From Oscillospiraceae bacterium (lineage in GTDB: Bacteria > Bacillota > Clostridia > Oscillospirales > Oscillospiraceae), in NCBI GenBank assembly GCA_009787625.1, contig WQSX01000002.1:186001-250000 (forward strand): a stretch of DNA of 64,000 nt, in the 5' to 3' direction. Within the stretch, counting starts at the first letter, position 1; every line of letters begins with the position of its first letter. This document shows positions 1,671 through 64,000 of the stretch, piece by piece. The translations under genes were made by a program, and so were the position numbers. The notes beneath the pieces were generated by a model. That model ran no database searches. It was not told the DNA's origin and worked only from the letters and a program-made list of their open reading frames with translations.

Positions 1671-4505
1671 GTGGCACAGGCTAGAGGGAAAAAAAAGGCT
1701 TCTACGAGTTCGAGAGCCTCTACAAAAACAACAAAAACTGAGCCGGCGGTCACCACATCGACTGAGCGCGCAGAGCGAAGCCAAACACCGCGCAGGCGGG
1801 GAATTATGGCTATCGTCTGTTTTGCGTTGGGTTTGTTCGCTTTTATCGGATATTTTGACAATGAGCCAATCTTTATAAGCTTTTTAACAGGTTTTATCAT
1901 GAGACTTATCGGGAGCGGATTTTATGCCCTGCCGCCTGCACTCATAATGTGTTCGGTGATTTTGGTGTTCCACAAGGGACGCCCCATACTTTTAAGAACT
2001 GTCTGCACACTTGTTATACCTGCCGTCATAGGCGCTCTGGCACATTTATTTTCAAGCACCATAGTGTTTGAAGCAGGTTTTGCTATGATTCCCGCACTTT
2101 GGAGAACAGGCGCAACACTTGAATCCGGCGGCATAATCAGCGGCACTTTTACGGAACTGTTAATGTGGTTGCTCGGAAACATCGGAACGGCAATAACAAT
2201 TATTTTGGGGCTTGGTGTGCTCGTATTTATAGTTTTTAAAACAACAATATTAAGAATCATAGAGACCTATAAAAACCGCCAAAGACTTGAATACGTCCCC
2301 AAGCCTGAGCCGGAACATGAGAACCAAGCAACAATGCCTCTGCAAGCACAACCCGCACAAAGCGCTGTTTCAAGTGTTCCTTACACGCCACCGCAATCAC
2401 CACCGCCATACGCATTTGAGGACAAAAAAAAGTATAAGCACCCGCTCACTCCTGCGTGGAAGAAAAAGAAAATTGACATTCCCTTTGACGAGAACAGTGT
2501 ACCCGGTCGTGACCACTTTGAAGATGACGATGGAGAAATACCGGATTATGGTTATTTTAAGCGTCAAGTTGACAAAGATAAAAACGACATGCGTGAAAGT
2601 GCTGTAAACGACATAAATAAATCCACATATGACGAAAAGGGCTTAGACGATTCAAAGGAAGATGAAAGAACCACCGGTGCGACTAACGAAGATATGCCGC
2701 TCGACATTCCGTTTATGGATGGCAGAATACGCCGGCCTCCACCCCTTATCCCGCCGATTTTGCGAGAACAGCTCATACCCGCAGATGAACACCATATTGA
2801 ACCCGAACGTGACCCTCGCGACATAATTCTACCCGACCTGCCGGAAGATTCCCCGCATGAGCCTTTTAACAACTCCGAACCGGCGCCACCCGACGCGTTT
2901 TCGTCAACAAAATCCAAAAGAGAAGCTAAGCCTGAATCTACAAAAAAAATTTCAACTCCGACCCACTCTGCACCGGCAGATTTCTCACCCGCCGGTGGTG
3001 CATCCGATTCCTACGCATTTCCTCCACTATCCCTGCTTTCAAAAGGCGAGCCTATATCCGGTGCGGGAGATGGTGAAGTTAAGTTAAATACAGAACGTCT
3101 AGAGTCTGCGTTTCGCAGTTTTGGCGTAAACGTAAATATCTCAAACGCCACAAGAGGACCCTCGGTCACACGCTACGAAGCGGAGCTGGAAGCGGGCGTT
3201 AAGCTCAGTAAGCTCACAAACCTTGCAGATGATATTGCACTTTCACTCGGCACTATCGGCGTCCGCATTGCCGCAATGCCCAACCGCATCTCGACAGTCG
3301 GCATCGAAGTTCCGAACAAAGACATCAGCAAAGTTCACCTGCGTGATGTTCTGGAGACAAAAGAGTTCAGCGGTGCCGCATCAAAGCTGAGTTTTGCAAT
3401 TGGCATGGACATAACAGGTGACCCCATAATCGGAGATATTTCAAAGCTTCCGCATATGCTCGTTGCGGGGACAACAGGCAGCGGTAAGTCCGTCTGCCTC
3501 AACTCAATAATTCTCAGCATTCTATATAAATCCTCACCCGATGATGTCCGTTTTATAATGGTTGACCCTAAAATGGTTGAGTTTAAAGCATACAACGACA
3601 TTCCGCACCTCTTGGTGCCTGTTGTCACCGACGCAAAAAAAGCCGCCGGGGCTTTGCAATGGGCAACTTTTGAGATGATGAAACGTTACACATTATTCGC
3701 AGAAACCAATGCCAGAGACCTCGCAGGGTATAATAAAATTGCCCGTAACTCAGCAGGCAGCGACGATGAGCGTGATCCTCTGCCGCAAGTGGTTGTGGTC
3801 ATTGATGAACTTGCAGACCTCATGATGCTCGCCGCAAAAGAAGTTGAAGAATCCATCTGCCGCGTAGCTCAGATGGGACGTGCCTCAGGCATTCATCTAA
3901 TTATAGCCACGCAGAGCCCCCGTGCCGACGTTATAACAGGTCTCATGAAAGCGAATATCCCGTCTCGAATTGCATTTAAAGTTTCAAGTGCGCTTGAATC
4001 TCGCATAATCCTAGACTCAGGAAGCAGTGCCGATAAACTTGTAGGCTATGGAGATATGCTCTACGCCCCGACAGGAGCGGCAAAACCTCTGCGCTTGCAA
4101 GGAACATGGGTAACAGACAATGAGAGGGAATCTATCATTGAATACATAAAGGGCAACAGCGGTCAAACTCAATACTCCGAAGAAGTAATCGGAGAAATTG
4201 AAAAAGCCATGGTTGAAAAATCATCAGGCGGCGACAAATCTTCCGCTGACGCAGGGGCAAACGGAGACTTTGACGAGCTGTTGCCGCAAGCTGTTGATGT
4301 AATTTTAGAAACAGGGCAAGCGTCCACGTCATTATTACAACGCAGGCTAAAATTAGGCTACGCACGCGCAGCCCGCATAGTTGACCAAATGGAAGACTTA
4401 GGTGTAGTAGGTCCGCACGAGGGCTCAAAGCCAAGACAAATACTGGTAACACGCGAAGAGTGGCGGCAAATGCAATACGTAAGCGGAGTAGCCCCGGAAG
4501 ATTGA
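1671..4505 (+). CDS. ftsK: FtsK/SpoIIIE-family DNA translocase
   Basis: Membrane-anchored, septum-located hexameric ATPase that pumps chromosomal DNA across the closing septum in division or sporulation. 944 residues from a GTG start with AGGAG at 1660-1664. The N-terminus is basic (KKKASTSSR), followed by about four membrane spans (roughly residues 45-190), a long charged and proline-rich linker (roughly 200-460), then the motor: Walker A AGTTGSGKS near residue 600 and Walker B VVVVIDELADLMM near 710. The C-terminal gamma winged helix (SLLQRRLKLGYARAARIVD) recognises orienting DNA sequences. Sequence alone does not separate division FtsK from sporulation SpoIIIE. The next gene converges, and the repeat hairpin at 4535 separates them. 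Confidence 0.95.
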   Translation: MAQARGKKKASTSSRASTKTTKTEPAVTTSTERAERSQTPRRRGIMAIVCFALGLFAFIGYFDNEPIFISFLTGFIMRLIGSGFYALPPALIMCSVILVFHKGRPILLRTVCTLVIPAVIGALAHLFSSTIVFEAGFAMIPALWRTGATLESGGIISGTFTELLMWLLGNIGTAITIILGLGVLVFIVFKTTILRIIETYKNRQRLEYVPKPEPEHENQATMPLQAQPAQSAVSSVPYTPPQSPPPYAFEDKKKYKHPLTPAWKKKKIDIPFDENSVPGRDHFEDDDGEIPDYGYFKRQVDKDKNDMRESAVNDINKSTYDEKGLDDSKEDERTTGATNEDMPLDIPFMDGRIRRPPPLIPPILREQLIPADEHHIEPERDPRDIILPDLPEDSPHEPFNNSEPAPPDAFSSTKSKREAKPESTKKISTPTHSAPADFSPAGGASDSYAFPPLSLLSKGEPISGAGDGEVKLNTERLESAFRSFGVNVNISNATRGPSVTRYEAELEAGVKLSKLTNLADDIALSLGTIGVRIAAMPNRISTVGIEVPNKDISKVHLRDVLETKEFSGAASKLSFAIGMDITGDPIIGDISKLPHMLVAGTTGSGKSVCLNSIILSILYKSSPDDVRFIMVDPKMVEFKAYNDIPHLLVPVVTDAKKAAGALQWATFEMMKRYTLFAETNARDLAGYNKIARNSAGSDDERDPLPQVVVVIDELADLMMLAAKEVEESICRVAQMGRASGIHLIIATQSPRADVITGLMKANIPSRIAFKVSSALESRIILDSGSSADKLVGYGDMLYAPTGAAKPLRLQGTWVTDNERESIIEYIKGNSGQTQYSEEVIGEIEKAMVEKSSGGDKSSADAGANGDFDELLPQAVDVILETGQASTSLLQRRLKLGYARAARIVDQMEDLGVVGPHEGSKPRQILVTREEWRQMQYVSGVAPED

Positions 4506-4534: not shown

Positions 4535-4628
4535 GCAGGTGGTGGGCAGTTTGTGGAGTCGTTTTGTGAGAACAGCGGTGTAGATCCCGATGGCTCGCAA
4601 AACGCGGAACAAACTGCCCACCACCTGC
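4535..4628. repeat. Long-hairpin repeat family A, copy 1
   Basis: The left arm 4535-4554 (GCAGGTGGTGGGCAGTTTGT) and right arm 4609-4628 are perfectly complementary over 20 bp. An inner stem pairs 4561-4570 with 4594-4603 with one G-T wobble. The 23-nt loop at 4571-4593 begins AACAGCGGTG and ends ATCCCGATGG, and is identical in the copies at 16268 and 63428, whereas the inner stem differs. It lies in the 161-bp gap between the convergent ftsK and GH43 genes. There is no T-run, so it is not a classical terminator. Function unknown. Confidence 0.9.
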
Positions 4629-4666: not shown

Positions 4667-5542
4667 TTACTTAACTCGCAGACCATCGTCAGTCTCTTCG
4701 AGCTCTACGAACATCGCACGTTCATTCGGGGTTTTGTTCGGGGTGTGTACGGTGAGCAATAATCTCCCATCATATGCCCTAAATATCATGCCGTGCCCAC
4801 CATCTTTGCCAAAAAGCGGCTCAGGGCTTTGTTTCCATGGACCTAGAATGTTTCCGCTATCTGAAATAGCATAACCTGAGCAATATCCCCCATCTCCAAT
4901 ACAAGACCATAATAAGAGCAATTTTCCGCTTTTCAGACGATATAGGAATGGACCGTCCGTGACATATCCTACTACATCGTTCGACTTTGACGGAATTTCT
5001 ATGCTCCAGCTTGCAGATGACGATGAAAAGAGAACAGTCGGATCTGTTATGGTTTTAATTAAATCATCACTAAGCCTAGCTGCGCTTATCGTGCCATCTC
5101 CTATTTGCTTCCACTCGTGACAAAATATTATCCAGGGAGCATTTTCATCATCGACAAAAAGGGTTCCGTCCAGACAATCCCAATCATTTGGTGTCACAGG
5201 GCCATTGCTATGAGGAGTATACGGTCCTTGAGGATGATAGGCCTTTAAGATTGCAGTTCCGCGCAGACGGTTTTCAGCTCTTGTGAATGTGGCAAACATA
5301 TAAAAACCACCCTGGTACTCATAAACTTCAGGTGCCCAGAAATTATGTGTACCCCAGAACCCGGCAGGTGGGAGAAATGCAGTAACAGGGGGCTCCCAAT
5401 TTAAAAGATCCGAACTCTTATGTACATTAAAACCTACGCCCGGAGCTTTCCATATGTCCTTATCTGTTGAGCCGAACATATAGTATAAGTTATCATGCTT
5501 GAAGATAAATGGGTCTCTAATTTGAATTTCAGAGGTTAACAT
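4667..5542 (-). CDS. Glycoside hydrolase family 43 enzyme
   Basis: Five-bladed beta-propeller glycosidase, probably an exo-acting xylosidase, arabinofuranosidase or galactosidase; substrate not predictable. 291 residues, no signal peptide, hence cytoplasmic. Expected residues are Asp10 (IRDPFIF, general base) and Asp125 (CLDGTLF, pKa modulator). At the general-acid position, where the family usually has Glu in an E-G-P context, this protein has TDGPFL with Asp197. I recall related GH43 subgroups with DGP, so this may be a subfamily trait. It is the last gene of a minus-strand cluster with a sugar ABC transporter and a second glycosidase, 24 bp after the latter, suggesting import and cytoplasmic trimming of an oligosaccharide. 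The upstream AAAGGAAT is a clear ribosome binding site. Confidence 0.88.
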   Translation of the reverse strand: MLTSEIQIRDPFIFKHDNLYYMFGSTDKDIWKAPGVGFNVHKSSDLLNWEPPVTAFLPPAGFWGTHNFWAPEVYEYQGGFYMFATFTRAENRLRGTAILKAYHPQGPYTPHSNGPVTPNDWDCLDGTLFVDDENAPWIIFCHEWKQIGDGTISAARLSDDLIKTITDPTVLFSSSSASWSIEIPSKSNDVVGYVTDGPFLYRLKSGKLLLLWSCIGDGGYCSGYAISDSGNILGPWKQSPEPLFGKDGGHGMIFRAYDGRLLLTVHTPNKTPNERAMFVELEETDDGLRVK

Positions 5543-14378: not shown

Positions 14379-15344
14379 ATGTTTACTATACATGATGTCT
14401 TTGAGAAAGACCCCAAGATGATGCGTGAGGTCTATTGTGACACACTTATTGAACTTGCACTCGTAAATGACGATATCGTTGCGTTAGACGCCGACCTTGT
14501 AAGCTCATCAGGCATGAAACCATTCTTCCAACGCTTTCCGGACAGAGCATTTAACTGTGGCGTCGCTGAAGCGAACATGATAGGCATTGCATCCGGACTT
14601 TCAGCGATGGGGAAAATTCCTTTTGCTCATTCATTTGGTTGTTTTGCGTCGCGCCGAGTGTGCGACCAGATTATGATTTCTGCTGCATATGCCAAGCAAA
14701 ATGTACGCATTCTCGGCTCTGACCCCGGCGTCACTGCCGCTTATAACGGCGGAACTCACATGCCTTTTGAGGATATGGGAACTCTGCGTTCCATACCGGA
14801 AATCAACCTCATAGAACCTGCTGATAACGTAATTTTAGAAGATGTCGTAAGACAACTTGCAGAACTTCATGGAGTGTTTTATATCCGCATGGCTCGCAAA
14901 AATGCAGTTTCTGTCTATAAAGAAGGCTCAAAATTCCATATCGGAAGAGGAAACACCTTGATTGACGGCACTGATGTAACCATATTTGCAAGTGGTATCA
15001 TGGTCCATGAAGCTCTAAAGGCGGCATCTATCCTACAAGTCGACAGCATTTCTGCAAGAATTGTCGATATGTTTACTTGGAAGCCGATTGACACTGAGCT
15101 TGTCGAAAACTGCGCGCGCATTACAGGTGCTTTTGTCACAGCAGAAAATCACAATATAGTCGGTGGTCTTGGTAGCGCAATTGCCGAAACTGTAGCTCAA
15201 ATGCGTCCGGTGCCGATTGAGATGGTCGGTGTTAAAGACCGTTTCGGTCAAGTTGGCACTGAGGACTTCTTGCGAGGCGAGTATGAATTGACCGCTGCGG
15301 ACATTGTAGAGGCGGCAAAACGTGCTATTGGACGTAAGGGGTAA
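14379..15344 (+). CDS. Transketolase, C-terminal subunit
   Basis: Supplies the pyrimidine-binding and C-terminal domains of the split transketolase. 321 residues from ATG 14379, chosen because a strong GGGGGGAG (14363-14370) lies eight bases upstream; an upstream in-frame start at 14325 would overlap the previous gene by 38 bp without its own site. Landmarks: REVYCDTLIELALVNDDIVALDADL, the catalytic-glutamate region FNCGVAEANMIGIASGLSAMGKIPFAHSF, and GVKDRFGQVGT near the C-terminus. The end overlaps the start of the EamA gene by one base. Confidence 0.95.
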   Translation: MFTIHDVFEKDPKMMREVYCDTLIELALVNDDIVALDADLVSSSGMKPFFQRFPDRAFNCGVAEANMIGIASGLSAMGKIPFAHSFGCFASRRVCDQIMISAAYAKQNVRILGSDPGVTAAYNGGTHMPFEDMGTLRSIPEINLIEPADNVILEDVVRQLAELHGVFYIRMARKNAVSVYKEGSKFHIGRGNTLIDGTDVTIFASGIMVHEALKAASILQVDSISARIVDMFTWKPIDTELVENCARITGAFVTAENHNIVGGLGSAIAETVAQMRPVPIEMVGVKDRFGQVGTEDFLRGEYELTAADIVEAAKRAIGRKG

Positions 15345-16237
15345 TGGAAAACAACCTCGAAACAAAACAATCTAAACAATCGCTCATATATTTATCGGCA
15401 CTGCTTGCCATATTTCTTTGGGCTTCAGCGTTTCCGGGCACTAGGTATGCTTTGCAATATTATAGCCCGGTTTCGCTCATGACACTCAGGTTTGTTGCGG
15501 CATCTTTGACCTTGGGTATTGTCGGCTTGTTCAAAAAAATCAGTCTGCCAAAGATTCGTGACTTGCCGATGTTTGCTATCAGCGGGCTTTCGGGAGTTTT
15601 CCTGTATTCCCTACTCTTTAATCTCGCCTCGGTGACTCTTCAAGCGGGAGTTACCAGTTTTGTTGTAGCATCATCACCTATTTTCACAATGATATTGGTT
15701 CGTATTTTTCTCAAAGAAAAAGTCAAAACTATTTGCTGGGTAGGTGTGTTTGTGAGTTCTGTTGGGCTTGCGGCTATTACGCTCACTGAGGTTACGGATT
15801 TTGCTTTAAACTCCGGCATGGTTTTAATAATCCTTGCGGCTGTTTGCAGCGGAGTCTATAGTGCTGTCATGCGTGGACTTACACGAAAATATACCGCTCT
15901 CGAAGCCACCACATACACAATCATTTTCGGGACTCTCGGTATGCTGTTTTTCTTGCCTGAGGCTATCTCTGAGATTCCAAACGCAACTTTTTTTGCCAAT
16001 ACCGTTGTTTTATTTATGGGAATTTTCCCGGCGGCACTGTCATATCTGGCTTGGGGATATGCCTTGGCTAAAGCAAAAAAGACAGCCCATGTGACTGTCT
16101 TTTCGTATTTGATTCCCTTTATATCGTCGGTGCTTGGATTCTTATGGCTCGGAGAAACTCTCTCAGCAATTACCATTGTCGGCGGAATTATAATAATCGG
16201 CGGAATGCTAATGACCAACGTGTTTGGCAGAGACTGA
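15344..16237 (+). CDS. EamA/DMT-superfamily transporter
   Basis: Ten-span membrane protein of the drug/metabolite transporter superfamily, 297 residues, made of two EamA repeats (first: LLAIFLWASAFPGTRYAL; second: LILAAVCSGVYSAVMRGLTRK and LGFLWLGETLSAITIVGG). Such proteins export metabolites or amino acids; substrate unknown. The start codon overlaps the stop of the transketolase C-subunit (TAATG), implying translational coupling; the GGGG two bases upstream is too close to act as a normal site. A convergent histidine kinase gene follows, with a family A hairpin between. Confidence 0.9.
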   Translation: MENNLETKQSKQSLIYLSALLAIFLWASAFPGTRYALQYYSPVSLMTLRFVAASLTLGIVGLFKKISLPKIRDLPMFAISGLSGVFLYSLLFNLASVTLQAGVTSFVVASSPIFTMILVRIFLKEKVKTICWVGVFVSSVGLAAITLTEVTDFALNSGMVLIILAAVCSGVYSAVMRGLTRKYTALEATTYTIIFGTLGMLFFLPEAISEIPNATFFANTVVLFMGIFPAALSYLAWGYALAKAKKTAHVTVFSYLIPFISSVLGFLWLGETLSAITIVGGIIIIGGMLMTNVFGRD

Positions 16238-16267: not shown

Positions 16268-16354
16268 CGGAATGGCGGTTTGCGGAGCGTTTTTGCGAGA
16301 ACAGCGGTGTAGATCCCGATGGCTCGCAAAAACGCTCCGCAAACTGCCATTCCG
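16268..16354. repeat. Long-hairpin repeat family A, copy 2
   Basis: The left arm 16268-16299 (starts CGGAATGGCGG) pairs with 16323-16354 over 32 bp with a single G-T wobble. The 23-nt loop 16300-16322 is identical to those of the other two copies. It sits between the convergent EamA and histidine kinase genes, 7 bp from the kinase stop codon. It is the best-paired copy of the family. Confidence 0.9.
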
Positions 16355-16360
16355 CTGCGG

Positions 16361-17797
16361 CTACCCAGATGTATTTTTTAGCGAAAAACTAAATGTTGTT
16401 ACACCGTCTTTACTCGCCGCTGTTATGTCTACGTTGTGGTTATCAAGAATTTGCTTTACTATATACAGACCCAGCCCCACACCATCTTTATCCGAACTGC
16501 GGGCTTTATCTGCCTTATAAAATCTGTTAAATATATGCGGGAGATCCTCTTCGGGGATTGTCTCGCCTTTGTTTGTCACAGATATGTGAACTCTTCCGTC
16601 CTGTTGCCGAACATTTAGGTCAAGCGTTCCGCCATCGACAGAAAATTTGATGGCGTTGTCTATGAGGTTGTAGACAACTTGAGTTATTGCATCTTTGTCG
16701 CCGCTTGCTATCATTTCATCGTCAGGCAAGTCAGCTTGAACTTCAAGTTTTTTTGTATCTATCTTTCCGCCGAGACTGAGAAGGGCTATGCGAACAACTT
16801 CTGCAACATCAAAATTTGACTCAAACAATGTACTAGGTGCCGCTGATTCGAGAGTGGAAACCTCCAGCATACTTCTCACAAGCCTCGTCATTCTTCTTGT
16901 TTCAGATGAGATAACACCTAAATAATGTGTATCGTCTGTGCGCGGCAGTGTGCCATCGAGAAGCCCTTCCGCAAAACCCGAAATGACCGTCATGGGTGTT
17001 TTGAGTTCATGAGAAAGATTTGTTATAAGTTCACGCTTGTGTTTTTCAGAATTTTCAAGTGATTCTGCCATGGCGTTAAATGCGTGAGTGAGCTGACCTA
17101 TCTCATCGTCTCTGCCCGTGTCTTTGACACGCTCTTCAAACTCACCGCGAGCAAAACGCAGAGCAGCGTTAGCCATTTCAATAAGCGGCTCTGTTTGTTT
17201 TTTCGCAGCTATAAACGAAACAAGAAAAGCAAGAACCATAACTCCAAGGGCGATTGACACAAAACCACCGGAAATACTGAACCACTGCTGTCTAAAAGCT
17301 TGTAAGTCGCTGGTCACGAACAGATACCCAAAAACTTCGTAAATATCGCCCTCTGCAAGCACTATAGGTAATGCCGCTACTTGCCTTGTGCGAGCATATA
17401 AATCTCCCATCTCCGAGCGGAGAATCTCATAATTACTCAGGTTTGCGAAATCCAGCAGATAGTGGGGTAAGCTCATGCCTATGTGATGTGGCAAAATTTC
17501 CGAACATGCAATTACCATTCCGTCAGAGTCAGTTAAAAGCAAGTCAAAGCCTGTCACTCCGGCGGTCATTGTAAGCCAAGGATCCAAGCTTTCATCGTTA
17601 ATTTGAATCCCGTGATGATGAATCTGCTCTCTGATATACACGGTAGTCTCACGCAATGTGGAAAACATTAAAGTTCTGTTTTCATTGTGTGTGCGATTGT
17701 AACTCAGCGCAATAAAAAGCCCACCCAGAAGCGAAAAGCTAATGAATACAATAAGTGCAGTAGCCAAAAATATTCTAAAATAAATACTTTTTCTCAT
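16361..17797 (-). CDS. Sensor histidine kinase
   Basis: Membrane sensor of a two-component system, 478 residues. Order: TM1 (about 8-32), an extracellular sensor of roughly 140 residues, TM2 (FVSIALGVMVLAFLVSFIA, about 178-197), HAMP linker (ALRFARGEFEERVKDTGRDDEIGQL), HisKA dimerisation helix with the phosphoacceptor in ELITNLSHELKTPM, then a HATPase domain with N-box NLIDNAIKF and G-box GVGLGLYIVKQ. It is transcribed after the response regulator gene, with a 114-bp gap. Signal unknown. Confidence 0.95.
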   Translation of the reverse strand: MRKSIYFRIFLATALIVFISFSLLGGLFIALSYNRTHNENRTLMFSTLRETTVYIREQIHHHGIQINDESLDPWLTMTAGVTGFDLLLTDSDGMVIACSEILPHHIGMSLPHYLLDFANLSNYEILRSEMGDLYARTRQVAALPIVLAEGDIYEVFGYLFVTSDLQAFRQQWFSISGGFVSIALGVMVLAFLVSFIAAKKQTEPLIEMANAALRFARGEFEERVKDTGRDDEIGQLTHAFNAMAESLENSEKHKRELITNLSHELKTPMTVISGFAEGLLDGTLPRTDDTHYLGVISSETRRMTRLVRSMLEVSTLESAAPSTLFESNFDVAEVVRIALLSLGGKIDTKKLEVQADLPDDEMIASGDKDAITQVVYNLIDNAIKFSVDGGTLDLNVRQQDGRVHISVTNKGETIPEEDLPHIFNRFYKADKARSSDKDGVGLGLYIVKQILDNHNVDITAASKDGVTTFSFSLKNTSG

Positions 17798-32601: not shown

Positions 32602-32658
32602 GAGTCCCCACAGAAGCTGGGCAGTTTGCTCCGCTGACATGGTGCGTGCGACAAGAGC

Positions 32659-32679: not shown

Positions 32680-32687
32680 CTACATAT

Positions 32688-40954: not shown

Positions 40955-41189
40955 AAATTATCCCTCGTTAACATTTTACACAATATTCACAATATGTCTA
41001 ATTGCTAAATAATATCACAAAATCAAGGAAAAGTAAAGAAATGAAGACACTCAAAAAAAATGTTTCTTCACAAATTATTATTATTTTGTTCTCAGTATAG
41101 ACATTGATTTTTCTTTCAAACTAAGTTAGGCTATGTTTATTGTACCGAGTGTACATTGATTTTTGTATCAGCAAAATACCATCTCAAAA
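40955..41189. other. AT-rich intergenic region ahead of the riboswitch
   Basis: Shared 5' region of prfA (minus) and the riboswitch transcript (plus). No ORF, RNA or repeat recognised. AT-rich stretches and several TTGATT-like hexamers are present, but no promoter with good boxes and spacing could be chosen. Confidence 0.4.
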
Positions 41190-41272
41190 ATCGATAAAGG
41201 CAAACCTGACCGAAAGGCAGGGACGCAAAGCTAGGGGTCTAAGGCAAAAAGCTATGACAGCCCGGCCGCCGA
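41190..41272 (+). ncRNA. c-di-GMP-I (GEMM-I) riboswitch
   Basis: Contains the class signature in order: AAAGGCAAACC, the GAAAGG tetraloop-like segment, GGGACGCAAAGC, GGGTCTAAGG, and the closing AGCCCGGCCGCCGA, which corresponds to AGCCGGGUUGCCGA in known members. It binds cyclic di-GMP. It sits about 170 nt upstream of the chemoreceptor gene at 41442 on the same strand, so it should make expression of that receptor depend on c-di-GMP. Confidence 0.92.
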
Positions 41273-41302
41273 AATTTTAGAGGAACTTCCTCTTCTTCGG
41301 CG
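41267..41302 (+). promoter_or_regulatory. Candidate riboswitch expression-platform hairpin
   Basis: CGCCGAA (41267-41273) pairs with TTCGGCG (41296-41302), with an inner AGAGGA/TCCTCT stem (41279-41293). The left arm overlaps the 3' strand of the aptamer's closing helix, so the two compete. A T-rich stretch (ATTTTTATTT) follows only about 14 nt later, so it is either a weak terminator or an antiterminator partner; ON versus OFF cannot be settled by eye. Confidence 0.6.
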
Positions 41303-41441: not shown

Positions 41442-43652
41442 ATGAAAAACATGAAAGTATCGAAAAAACTACTGGTAAGTTTTATGATAGTTATAGCTTT
41501 AGCCGTAACTGTCGCCGCATTCGGCATCTTCGGAATGATGCAAATTAACGATGGCTCGCAAACCATGTACGAGCACCAAACTGAGCCGCTGGCTGACCTA
41601 GCGGCAGCGCGCGAGTACTTCCAAAGATTGCGCGTACAACTGCGTGAGGCGCAATTATCAACAACGGTCGCAGAACTAAATGCAGTAGAAAATGAAATCA
41701 ATCAAAGGGTAGAGACTTTCGAGAGCAGTATGGCCGAATATGAGGGAACCCTTATAAATCCGAGATACAGAGAAATTTACTACAACACAATGGAAATATA
41801 CGCTCAGTTTAAATCATATGTTGAAGACATCATAAGAGAGACATATGTAATTATTGACACACAAGCAGAAATCCAACAATTTTTACCGCTTGCCGCAGCA
41901 ACATCTAACTCCGCAGCAGACTATATCACCGACCTGATGAACAGACGTGTTGAACAAATTCACGCCGCAGGGCCATATGATGATATAGCTATGTTTATTG
42001 ATTCACTCATATACATCGCCTATGCTTCAGAATATATGCAACGCCTGCGCGTACAATTGCGGGAAGCAATACTCGCCACATCAATGGATGGCTTTGAAGC
42101 AGTATTGGCAGAAGCGAACCAACGCGAAGAAATGTTTCGCTCAAGCATGGCATCTTTCAACGCAACGATAGAAACTGCAGCAACTCAAGCAATCTTTGAC
42201 AGCGCAATGAGTGAATTCGAACAGTACAGCTTGTATGTCGCCGATATATTTGAAGATACGCGCCATAGAATAGCACTGCAATACACCGTAGATGAAATTC
42301 GCCCGGTAGCGGCTTCGACATCAAACGTGGTTTCAGACGGTCTCGAAGAGCTAATGCTTATCCGTATCGGTCAAGCTGCCGATCAAAACGTTGCCAATAC
42401 AGCTACATTCAGCACAATGCTGGTAACAATCATAATTGTCATAGTTGTTGCAGTGGCAATAGCACTATTCTTCGCAGTTTACATCTCAAAACTCGTAGCG
42501 AAACCAATGGTAACACTCGACGAGTGGATGCAATCTACAGCAAAAGAAGGCAATATATCATTGACAGCCGAGAAAGGTGCAATCCTCAACGGATATAAAG
42601 TCCGCAAAGATGAAATTGGAAGACTGTTTAGCTCTTACCTAGACATAATTAAAGGTCTCGAAGTGGTTGACTCAGAACTCAAAGAAATCGCAAGCGGTAA
42701 CCTAAACCTTGATGTAAATGTAAGGTCAGACCTTGATACAATTTCATTATCACTCAAGCAAATGGTAGAGGACCTAAACAACATGTTCGGGGAAATCAAC
42801 ACCGCAACAGGGCAAGTCGCATCAGGTTCAAAGCAAATTGCAGAAGGATCTCAATCGCTCGCGCAAGGAAGCACAGAGCAAGCCGCATCAGTACAGCAAC
42901 TCTCAGCATCAATCGGAGAAATCGCAGAAAAAACCAAAAATAATGCGGCGATGGCAGAAGAGGCGGCAACGCTTGCCGAGACAATCATGGTCAACGCAGA
43001 AAAAGGAAGTCAGCAAATGGGTGAAATGACCGAAGCGGTCAGAGAAATCAACGAAGCCAGCCAAAACATAAGCAAAGTCATCAAAGCAATAGATGATATC
43101 GCATTCCAAACAAACATTTTGGCACTAAATGCCGCAGTAGAAGCCGCAAGAGCAGGTCAGCACGGTAAGGGATTTGCAGTGGTAGCAGAAGAAGTCCGCA
43201 ACCTCGCATCGAAGAGTGCAGAAGCAGCAAAAGACACAGGCGACCTGATTGCAAACTCGATTCAAAAAGCAGAGTTAGGCGCACGCATAGCTGAAGACAC
43301 AGCAACAAGCCTTGGCGAAATTGTAACAGGCATAGGCGAGAGCAGTCAACTCGTTGGTAAAATAGCGGAATCATCCGAGGAGCAAGCTGCAGGAATCTCC
43401 CAAATCAACGAGGGTATAGACCAAGTGGCATCAGTAGTTCAACAAAACAGCGCAACCGCAGAACAATCCGCAGCAGCATCAGAAGAAATGAGTGGTCAAT
43501 CGCTGATGTTAGAAGAGCTGGTTTCTCGCTTCAAACTAAAAGTAGGTGAAGGTCTTGCAAAACTACAAGCTCCAGTGGACGCCGAGCGATTTGAACTGGC
43601 ACCGGCAACAGCAAGCACGGACACAAACGACTCAGACTTCGGAAAGTATTAA
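41442..43652 (+). CDS. Methyl-accepting chemotaxis protein with duplicated extracellular sensor
   Basis: Transmembrane chemoreceptor signalling to CheA/CheW. 736 residues: TM1 ([22 protein letters not shown], about 10-31), a large extracellular helical region (about 32-325), TM2 ([24 protein letters not shown]), HAMP-like linker, and a cytoplasmic signalling domain with hairpin tip [23 protein letters not shown] and flanking methylation helices. The sensor contains an internal duplication: [18 protein letters not shown] recurs as [18 protein letters not shown] about 140 residues later with the helices around it. Expression should be set by the upstream c-di-GMP riboswitch. GAGGAG precedes the ATG. 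Confidence 0.95.
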
Positions 43653-62027: not shown

Positions 62028-63356
62028 TCACCGAATAACGAATGTATGTAGGCTGTGTGGTTCAATTACAGCTGAAAAACTACCTTTTTGATGGCTAAAA
62101 CTAAACACTCGTTCACGATTCATGCTGCTGCATACAATCAACACAATACTTCCGTCCGGATTTTCAAAAGCAATAGTATTTGCACTCCAAGAACCTTTGA
62201 CCTCCACATAGGTAGCATTTGGGTCAACAAAATGGGAAAAATGTTTTATCAAGTAAAATTCAGGATTGTACTGAATTTTACCATCCTCGGATGTTGCCAG
62301 TGAGTTTTGTTGCCAGCCCCAAGTAGATTCTCCGTTTTTGGGTAAAATACAATTCCAGTATATGTACCGCTCTGTGCCATATTTGAAATACTGCCACATC
62401 AAACCCCAGATATATTCCATTTGCTCCCATGTGTTGGTCCCTGCACCGCATTCACTTTCAGTTTGCATAATTCTGAGATCGGGATAAGCCGCTGAAATTT
62501 GACTGAGTTGGTGCTTGCCGCCCCATTGCAGCCCCACACCGGAAATATAAGAGCGTGCCTGCGCGTCTGATAATATGGTATTTGTCCATTGGTCAAAAAA
62601 CTCTGAGAATGGACTGCAAAATCCCGGCATATCGCGATAATCGCTAAACGGCCCATTGATAGTGCCTAACCACAGCTCGGTGTTTGGTGCATCGGATTTT
62701 ATTGCAGGTCCCAAGTAATCGCGTATAAAGACCAGCATATCTTCACCACTCCACAGGCATGAGGGGAATTTTTGGTCAGCCATAGGCTCATTTTGCGGAT
62801 GAACTTGGTCTACGGTGACGCCTTGCTCGCCATATGCTTTAATAAACTTCACAAAGTACTGTGCATATGCCTTTAAATATGGCTCTTCCATTTTAAAACG
62901 GCCATAATTATAAGCCATCTTTGTTTTCATCCATATAGGAGGGCTCCAAGGGGATGCAAACAAAGAAAAATCTTTTTGCCGACTCAAGGCTTCCTTTACA
63001 AAAGGTATGGTATATTTTTTATCACGCTCAATATTAAAATGCTCAAGCGAGAAGTCATCACGCACATCGTCGCAACTGTACCACTCCAAACTGTAATCAT
63101 TAGCCCCAATCGGCACACGCCCTGAGTTGAATCGACAGCCGTCTTCTCCGTACAGTTCATTTAAAAATTCATTGCGTGTGGTTTCGGGCAAACCGCTGAG
63201 AGTGTCCCAACTTAGCTCATTGAAACAGTTTCCGAATCCCAATATTTTTTGCCTTCTGACACCGGTAAGCTCAAGTTTATCATCATGTTGCTCTGAAGTG
63301 ACAGCTGAGCTCTCCCAGCAAGCGCCCTCTACACTTTTTATGTGAATAATCGCCAC
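62028..63356 (-). CDS. Glycoside hydrolase family 30 enzyme (glucosylceramidase-like)
   Basis: 442 residues, no signal peptide. Catalytic (beta/alpha)8 barrel with side beta domain: GFGNCFNELSWDTLSG near residue 40, SPWSPPIWMKT, acid/base Glu190 in HPQNEPMADQ, probable nucleophile Glu300 in MQTESECGAG, and a C-terminal all-beta part (NPDGSIVLIVCSSMN). GH30 members act on beta-glucosides, beta-1,6-glucans or beta-xylosides; the exact one is not predictable. Intracellular, like its GH1 neighbour. It probably belongs with the upstream GH172 gene, though a family A hairpin lies in the 192-bp gap. Confidence 0.92.
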   Translation of the reverse strand: MAIIHIKSVEGACWESSAVTSEQHDDKLELTGVRRQKILGFGNCFNELSWDTLSGLPETTRNEFLNELYGEDGCRFNSGRVPIGANDYSLEWYSCDDVRDDFSLEHFNIERDKKYTIPFVKEALSRQKDFSLFASPWSPPIWMKTKMAYNYGRFKMEEPYLKAYAQYFVKFIKAYGEQGVTVDQVHPQNEPMADQKFPSCLWSGEDMLVFIRDYLGPAIKSDAPNTELWLGTINGPFSDYRDMPGFCSPFSEFFDQWTNTILSDAQARSYISGVGLQWGGKHQLSQISAAYPDLRIMQTESECGAGTNTWEQMEYIWGLMWQYFKYGTERYIYWNCILPKNGESTWGWQQNSLATSEDGKIQYNPEFYLIKHFSHFVDPNATYVEVKGSWSANTIAFENPDGSIVLIVCSSMNRERVFSFSHQKGSFSAVIEPHSLHTFVIR

Positions 63357-63427
63357 ACTTTTTACCTCCTCAAAATAAAATCACTCATGTGTTATTTGTT
63401 TGTATTTTGTAACTATTCACCAGGCCG

Positions 63428-63522
63428 GCAGATGATGGACAGTTTACCCTGATTTTTCGGGAGAACAGCGGTGTAGATCCCGATGGCTCCCGAAAAATCA
63501 GGGTAAACTGCTCATCATCTGC
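63428..63522. repeat. Long-hairpin repeat family A, copy 3
   Basis: The left arm 63428-63463 (starts GCAGATGATGG) pairs with 63487-63522 over 36 bp with one wobble and one mismatch. The loop 63464-63486 is identical to copies 1 and 2. Outer arms share the pattern GCAGxTGxTGGxCAGTTT with copy 1, while the inner stem (CCCTGATTTTTCGGGAG) is unrelated. It lies between the GH172 and GH30 genes, which are transcribed in the same direction. Confidence 0.9.
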
Positions 63523-63548
63523 GGGGGTACTGAACAGTTACTGCATTT

Positions 63549-64000
63549 TTACATGAAAGGAAAATTGATGTTTTCCAAATAATCCTTGTCCGGTAATGTT
63601 GGGAAATTAACCGTTGGCAATGTCTGATACCAGTACGCCACGGAGGCGATATCATCTTGCAACGGGAGATAACGCCCATCTTCGCGCCAACCGAGAGCCT
63701 GAATGGTCACTTTCATGTCTTTCTCAAAACGAATGGGGTCCACTATGTGCCAGCGGTACATTCCAAAGCGCTGTTGGCTCTGATATAACCCATCAGGACG
63801 CAGAATCTGGTGCAGCCCCGCATAAGCTGTGGAGAACTCTTCATATTGATGTTTTCTGTGGTTCTCAAAGTTATAGGAGCCACAAAAATAATCCTCTGTT
63901 CCCGTGCCGCAGATTGTTGGAAAATCAGTATCCCCATCCATATAAAATTTAATTTCGCCTTCGCCCCACCAGCCAACGCTGTTTGACTGCCAAGCCATGA
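63549..64000 (-). CDS. GH172 (DUF2961) glycosidase, C-terminal part (5' end outside window)
   Basis: The last 150 residues of a DUF2961 protein, recognised by GWWGEGEIKFYMDGDTDFPTICGTGTEDYFCGSYNF and the later GLYQSQQRFGMYRWHIVDPIRFEKDMKVTIQALGW. Characterised GH172 enzymes act on alpha-D-arabinofuranosides and difructose anhydride; the family includes many gut and soil bacterial members. The Met at 63998 is internal; the gene continues beyond the window. It is upstream of GH30 on the same strand. Confidence 0.88.
   Translation of the reverse strand, partial: MAWQSNSVGWWGEGEIKFYMDGDTDFPTICGTGTEDYFCGSYNFENHRKHQYEEFSTAYAGLHQILRPDGLYQSQQRFGMYRWHIVDPIRFEKDMKVTIQALGWREDGRYLPLQDDIASVAYWYQTLPTVNFPTLPDKDYLENINFPFM

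Follow-up and report, generated by a model that had tools for sequence, protein, structure and literature searches.

A hairpin element family with a constant tip on covarying stems, in part with IS66-type ends, in an Oscillospiraceae genome and, with other tips, in congeners

The attC sites of integrons are recognized as a folded strand and have poorly conserved stems, and insertion sequences of the IS66 family generate an 8-bp target duplication. Two classes of short dispersed palindromes are closest to the elements described here. Palindromic MITEs (Correia/NEMIS, ERIC, RUP, and YPAL) are approximately 100–200 bp long, mostly intergenic, and characterized by terminal repeats, target duplications, and transcripts predicted to form long stem-loops (PMC2229807). 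REP/REPIN sequences, which are associated with RAYT transposases (see also PMC3116915 and PMC8266576), occur as many short palindromes per genome, and their stem changes preserve pairing (PMC3733652); G-T pairs in the stems were taken by their authors as a hint of an RNA function (PMC3733652). The terminal sequences reported for IS66 open with GTAAGCG or GTAACCG (PMC12888890).

The hairpins analyzed in this study resemble palindromic MITEs in size, mostly intergenic location, and predicted folding, and a part of them (group B, defined below) also has terminal repeats and target duplications. However, palindromic MITEs mostly end in TA (PMC2229807), whereas group B has GTAAC..GTTAC ends with 8-bp duplications; TA ends of the ERIC/NEMIS/RUP type were not found in group B, the group with defined ends. 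For palindromic MITEs, the consulted part of that review (PMC2229807) does not describe a constant, lineage-specific tip carried by diverged, covarying stems. The abundance of palindromes and the pairing-preserving stem changes are shared with REP/REPIN sequences, but the present hairpins are several times longer, have 8-bp duplications in group B, lack a conserved GTAG or CGTC tag, and reside in a genome without a Y1/RAYT domain. They resemble attC sites in poorly conserved stems and putative folded-strand recognition, and differ from them in being scattered over the genome, without arrays, and in having a constant tip. Neither the hairpin family nor a lineage-specific constant tip on covarying stems was found described among the listed titles and abstract openings of the open-licence PMC literature, which is weak evidence of absence; the nearest accounts in print, judged from the consulted parts of each, are the MITE review (PMC2229807), the REP survey (PMC3733652), and a survey of stem-loop families (PMC2267715).

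The window, i.e., the whole analyzed stretch of 64,000 nucleotides, corresponds to positions 186001-250000 of contig C2 in genome G000 (3.02 Mb, 94 contigs, completeness 95.03, contamination 5.53). It contains three hairpin copies and a solitary arm remnant:

1671-4505 and 4667-5542, open reading frames flanking copy 1, both with Pfam matches
4535..4628, + strand, copy 1, group A hairpin (sequence, predicted fold)
4571..4593, + strand, constant 23-nt tip of copy 1 (pattern search)
15344-16237 and 16361-17797, open reading frames flanking copy 2, both with Pfam matches
16268..16354, + strand, copy 2, group A hairpin (sequence, predicted fold)
16300..16322, + strand, constant 23-nt tip of copy 2 (pattern search)
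32616..32634, + strand, solitary left-arm remnant GCTGGGCAGTTTGCTCCGC (sequence)
62028-63356 and 63549-63998, open reading frames flanking copy 3, both with Pfam matches
63401..63408, no strand, left 8-bp target duplication of copy 3, TGTATTTT
63409..63421, + strand, left terminal inverted repeat of copy 3, GTAACTATTCACC, IS66-type end
63428..63522, + strand, copy 3, group B hairpin (sequence, predicted fold)
63464..63486, + strand, constant 23-nt tip of copy 3 (pattern search)
63530..63541, + strand, right terminal inverted repeat of copy 3, CTGAACAGTTAC
63542..63549, no strand, right 8-bp target duplication of copy 3, TGCATTTT

An earlier reading of the window from its letters alone (the sequence-only reading) had reported three intergenic hairpins with the same 23-nt loop on different but complementary stems. 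Indeed, the segment AACAGCGGTGTAGATCCCGATGG is identical at 4571, 16300, and 63464 (0 matches in 100 shuffles), all three copies lie between the listed open reading frames, and their arms differ while complementarity is kept, the predicted folding energies of the tip strand being -63.0, -67.1, and -65.6 kcal/mol for copies 1, 2, and 3, respectively (the opposite strand of copy 3 folds slightly better, -66.9 vs. -65.6 kcal/mol). Two points of this description were revised: the stems are not unrelated but represent divergent members of one family with a common outer consensus, and the constant segment is not entirely a loop, since part of it is predicted to pair (CA.CGG / CCG.TG) around an 8-nt apex. 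In copy 1, the constant tip sits on an inner helix, which is separated from the 20-bp outer helix by a 3x3 internal loop (GGA/GGA) with a bulged T; copy 2 has 32 consecutive pairs below the tip, one of which is G-T. The duplications flanking copy 3 are alike at 7 of 8 positions. Other details of the reading also held, namely the right edge CTGCGG of all three copies and the half-arm near 32617, which is located about 25 bp from an unrelated palindromic repeat of the GTAGGGGC type. An intrinsic terminator was rejected for the three window copies, as a T-run directly after the hairpin is lacking on both strands in all of them (read by eye), in agreement with the same reading; a T6 is found 18 bases beyond the stated end of copy 2.

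The loop matches no Rfam family above the gathering threshold, as had been surmised. In the window, only a c-di-GMP-I riboswitch and a tRNA scored above threshold, and five loci gave 14 sub-threshold matches, mostly to generic hairpin (microRNA) models. The riboswitch (76.9 bits) occupies window positions 41189-41273 (+), upstream of the open reading frame 41442-43652. A further family of palindromic repeats in the window, GTAGGGGCGACC..GGTCGCCC, has complementary stems of variable sequence (positions 32683 and 34227, minus strand); at L032:5200-5280, one of the present hairpins has a repeat pair of this type instead of its apex.

The genome-wide loop search proposed by the sequence-only reading revealed 135 places in G000 (66 forward and 69 reverse, up to 2 mismatches), versus 0 for the reversed pattern; at least one of these copies is apparently counted twice, the end of contig C35 and the start of C19 having the same arms. 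Six contigs (C11, C12, C19, C33, C35, and C70) start or stop within a hairpin copy; thus, the repeats break the assembly, and one copy can count twice. With up to 3 mismatches, 126 distinct copies were collected from the stretches retrieved, 112 of them with the exact consensus loop. The anatomy of the element was deduced from 100 copies with complete flanks (5 of 105 were dropped for incomplete flanks). Twenty-five of these were assigned to group B by the string GGGAGAACAG, a rule that takes in locus L056 although its arms resemble group A, and the remaining 75 constitute group A. The exact tip is present in 74 of the 75 group A copies and 22 of the 25 group B copies. RNAalifold predicted 36 pairs for the 100 copies, 23 of which are changed on both sides in at least one sequence. 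Outermost lies a 20-bp helix whose sequence varies (GCAGATGATGGGCAGTTTG, with many compensated variants). In most group A copies it is followed by a 3x3 internal loop, both sides of which read GGA or GTA, and a bulged T; the T-rich inner helix and the constant segment come next. The left edge is a conserved AGCAG preceded by variable bases, GTAG being found in some copies only. A further closing helix beyond the group A hairpin was rejected, as the copies' own flanks pair no better than swapped flanks. Two damaged group B elements were observed: at L108:973-1060 the outer arms are kept and the whole inner helix and tip are missing, as expected from deletion between palindrome arms, and at L111:1210-1560 the right arm is interrupted by another repeat with ends TATACTAGCGAGCGAAAACATTT.

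The mismatches left in the stems are strongly asymmetric. In the outer arms (100 copies by 19 pairs, 1900 cells), G·T/T·G combinations occur on the tip strand in 177 cells and A·C/C·A in 13, or 89:13 without the single mostly-wobble column, where cells count copies rather than events. The same asymmetry was observed in six congeners (69 elements, 17 pairs; the contig-end copy L179 was excluded from the G018 counts), with G·T:A·C ratios of 66:5, 38:1, 13:1, 12:2, 10:0, and 9:0; without columns with more than 30% wobble, these become 21:5, 5:1, 5:1, 6:0, 5:0, and 4:0, or 46:7 in sum. Since a G·T on one strand would be an A·C on the other, equal counts are expected without strand selection or strand-biased mutation. 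The repeated excess of G·T therefore suggests that one strand is selected to fold and, together with the pairs changed on both sides, supports the selection of the folded form proposed by the sequence-only reading, although strand-biased mutation could in principle imitate such a bias.

The earlier suggestion that the copies spread is supported for group B by terminal repeats and duplications. These elements have the ends GTAACTATTCA / GTAACTGTTCA, seen as GTAACTATTCACC and CTGAACAGTTAC at a distance of 19 nt from the helix; the left end is at least 8/11 alike in 19 of 25 copies, and 8-bp duplications at least 7/8 alike at one fixed offset flank 10 of 25 copies, versus 0.2 expected. Of the 19 genus genomes searched with PF03050, 7 gave IS66-type matches. 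A candidate full-length partner was found in congener G006, where the element L101:1371-3266 has the ends GTAACTATTCA and GTAACTGTTCA with the same left/right A/G difference as in group B and is flanked on both sides by CTTTTTCA, a perfect 8-bp duplication; with 259.9 bits, its open frame of 514 aa exceeds the NCBIfam cut-off for IS66 (180 bits). Group B thus matches this single-gene element in ends and duplication length, whereas the hairpin carries no gene and has only about 11 terminal bases at each end in common with it. In G000 (assembly about 95% complete), PF03050 finds only a 207-aa transposase remnant (L114). The elements of G018 have the ends GTTACACTTCAC, with 8-bp duplications recognized by eye in at least 4 of 20 listed loci (L178, L183, L184, and L185); PF03050 gave no match in G018, although this genome carries many elements. 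A second, more distant IS66-type gene (562 aa) was observed in G001 (L104:82-2431) between the repeats GTTACTGTTCACTCCC / GTTACAGTTCACTCCC, which resemble the hairpin element ends of G018 and lack a target duplication. The sequence-only reading held that a match to a known insertion sequence family would remove the novelty, which applies in part, to the IS66-type ends of group B.

For group A, no target duplication was detected above chance, the best z of 3.2 among 1,156 offset pairs being judged no more than so many tests give, and the left terminal repeat was found in 4 of 75 copies against a background of 1.0. Support for IS66 transposition is consequently confined to group B. Group A most likely comprises older insertions with eroded ends and duplications and a retained hairpin, and a separate route of spread is possible for it. 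When the 80-nt flanks of 100 copies were joined and compared with a set of collected loci, no filled/empty pair was recognized.

The covariance-model search of relatives, also proposed at the outset, recovered the architecture and not the tip. The G000 tip is absent from 59 other genomes, including 18 congeners, at up to 3 mismatches. The covariance model matches 10 of the 19 genus genomes, G000 included; its match numbers (e.g., 101 and 46) are capped at 150 per genome and inflated about twofold, since near-perfect hairpins match on both strands. Reading of the loci demonstrated the same architecture with other tips in 7 of 18 congeners (G004-G009 and G018), whereas the matches in G002 (L123) and G003 (L121) are unrelated hairpins and were not counted. 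G005, the nearest relative of G000 by FtsK identity, has at least five tips, AACAGTGGCGCAATGCTCTCTGG and AACAATGGCGACAAGACCGTTGG among them, carried by inner arms that are almost the same as in group A; the apex GGGCGAYAAGACCC is found in most listed copies of G006, G007, and G018 and in the single G004 copy; and G008 and G009 have tips other than GGGCGAYAAGACCC. The tip is thus characteristic of each lineage. The pattern of the second tip type occurs in 34 stretches of the genome collection, all from Oscillospiraceae bacterium MAGs with isolate names starting with Co191 or Emb289, which, in the consulted part of the source, designate gut genomes of the termites Cornitermes sp. and Embiratermes neotenicus (PMC7024585). 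The host of the G000 elements is presumably a gut member of the Oscillospiraceae, probably of termites, judging by its genus. Beyond the genus, 1 of 120 family genomes was positive, namely G000 itself; this is a weak result, as 29 candidates per genome were scored and G000 was the sole known carrier in the draw. A phage origin was rejected, the tip patterns giving 0 stretches in viral contigs (near records were possibly left out there). Altogether, a hairpin element that appears to be selected for its structure and in part to be mobilized in the IS66 manner is present in at least 8 of the 19 genus genomes.

It is quite improbable that the fold is kept by mutation alone, with arms copied by template switching at replication, no selection of the folded strand, and tips uniform because the copies are young. 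Arm copying in both directions does seem to occur: in L036 and L056 a left-arm segment is found on the right, and in L051 a right-arm segment is found on the left. Template switching, which in the consulted part of the source is proposed to give rise to compensating changes (PMC8794818), accounts for the near-perfect palindromes; however, it does not predict the excess of G·T over A·C, which speaks against it as a full account, and the outer arms vary in many compensated ways while the tips hardly do so (mean diversity 0.0116 per tip site in 126 copies). Movement of the loop strand as single-stranded DNA, cut and joined by an HUH enzyme or a tyrosine recombinase as in IS200/IS605, REP, or attC-like systems and leaving group A as its products, would agree with the strand-specific fold, the scarcity of terminal repeats and lack of detectable duplications in group A, and the orientation of the tip strand, which coincides with the C-rich strand in 82 of 119 copies (p = 4.5e-5; 7 of the 126 copies were left out for short flanks) and in 18 of 25 in G005 (p = 0.04). 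Nonetheless, the Y1 transposase domain (PF01797) gave 0 matches in G000, which is about 95% complete, while 5 of 14 control genomes were positive, and the ends and duplications of group B and G018 are of the DDE type. For group B, these features point to an IS66-type DDE transposase and not to the HUH/RAYT route suggested by the sequence-only reading, and such single-stranded spread is unlikely as the explanation of the family.

Domestication as a regulatory element, with copies acting locally, e.g., at transcript 3' ends or in leaders, and kept by host selection, is very unlikely, even though the location of the copies gives it some appeal. Outside genes called by a simple script lie 104 of 105 copies, and among the 96 with both neighbors called, 88 face at least one stop codon, at a median distance of 27 bp (112 facing stops). 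However, orientation relative to genes is mixed (43, 27, 18, and 8 copies in the four arrangements), and the frequencies of the neighbor classes are similar to those seen for gene junctions throughout the window. In 64 of 105 copies, the tip lies on the strand opposite to most genes of its locus. This is unusual for a cis-acting mRNA element and does not agree with a simple sense-strand one; together with the preference for the C-rich strand, it would be in line with strong hairpins being avoided in mRNA or in the template of the lagging strand. Adjacent copies in G000 mostly have the same orientation (53 of 84 pairs, p = 0.01). Most insertion sites differ between species. A copy just upstream of mnmA is common to G008 and G009, with 93 of 94 element bases identical, and is absent by the covariance model from the other 16 genomes with a located mnmA; it is no clear outlier, as the surrounding 100-base windows are 81-100% identical.

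Candidate sites shared by G000 and G005 were collected by gene neighbors (L035/L159, L039/L154, and L008/L214); L039/L154, at a contig end, is uncertain, and L008/L214 was rejected because its flanks do not align. L005/L127 (G018) and L044/L147 (G007) have the element in one orientation and on one side of the same gene, but the surrounding sequence aligns poorly. The potA-potB spacer carries the element in the same orientation in G000 and G005 and lacks it in all 13 further genomes whose potA match reaches at least 78% identity; in G006 and G010 this spacer has other repeats, that of G010 (L267) being a different long inverted repeat with ACTATAAAATATAG arms. The insertion is probably shared, the alternative being two independent insertions into the same short spacer. 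The G000 copy has the G000 tip, and the G005 tip differs from it at 9 of 23 bases. Should the insertion be shared, its tip has been exchanged in place for one that agrees with the other copies of the genome, and the difference between these nearest species hints at genome-wide tip replacement. A tentative and rather doubtful extension is that the tip is an exchangeable identity tag, rewritten genome-wide and read by a trans-acting partner co-evolving with it; hairpins at old sites would receive the current tip with outer stems untouched, either from a folded single-stranded RNA or DNA that is copied or by tip-to-tip conversion between dispersed copies.

The explanation that we favor, and consider reasonably probable, is that the three hairpins belong to one non-autonomous, IS66-type mobile family, a palindromic MITE with one strand selected to fold and a tip read in trans. 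Its full form, of about 130 bp, would comprise the terminal repeats, about 8 unpaired nucleotides, the 20-bp outer helix, the T-rich inner helix, and the structured 23-nt tip, with a small internal loop between the outer and inner helices in many copies. An IS66-family DDE transposase would recognize the GTAACTATTCA / GTAACTGTTCA ends, spread the element, and leave 8-bp target duplications; such ends and duplications are present in group B, and the enzyme is suggested by the congener element with the same ends. The stems would need only to pair and could thus drift by compensating changes and arm-to-arm copying, while one strand would be selected to fold, as supported by the wobble bias. The prevalence of tip strands opposite to the neighboring genes and the slightly better fold of the other strand in copy 3 weigh against this explanation. 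Both what the fold is used for and why the tips are uniform are inferred: the constraint on the tip sequence most likely comes from recognition of the folded strand in trans, probably as RNA. Group A would then represent older insertions with the ends and duplications eroded and the hairpin retained.

A hairpin MITE is linked here to an IS66-type partner. The genome contains more than 100 copies of a structure whose stem and tip evolve by different rules, and its relatives use other tips. This makes it testable whether bacterial hairpin MITEs are kept because the folded strand is used, and how dispersed repeats can stay alike over a short inner stretch when the sequences around it diverge.
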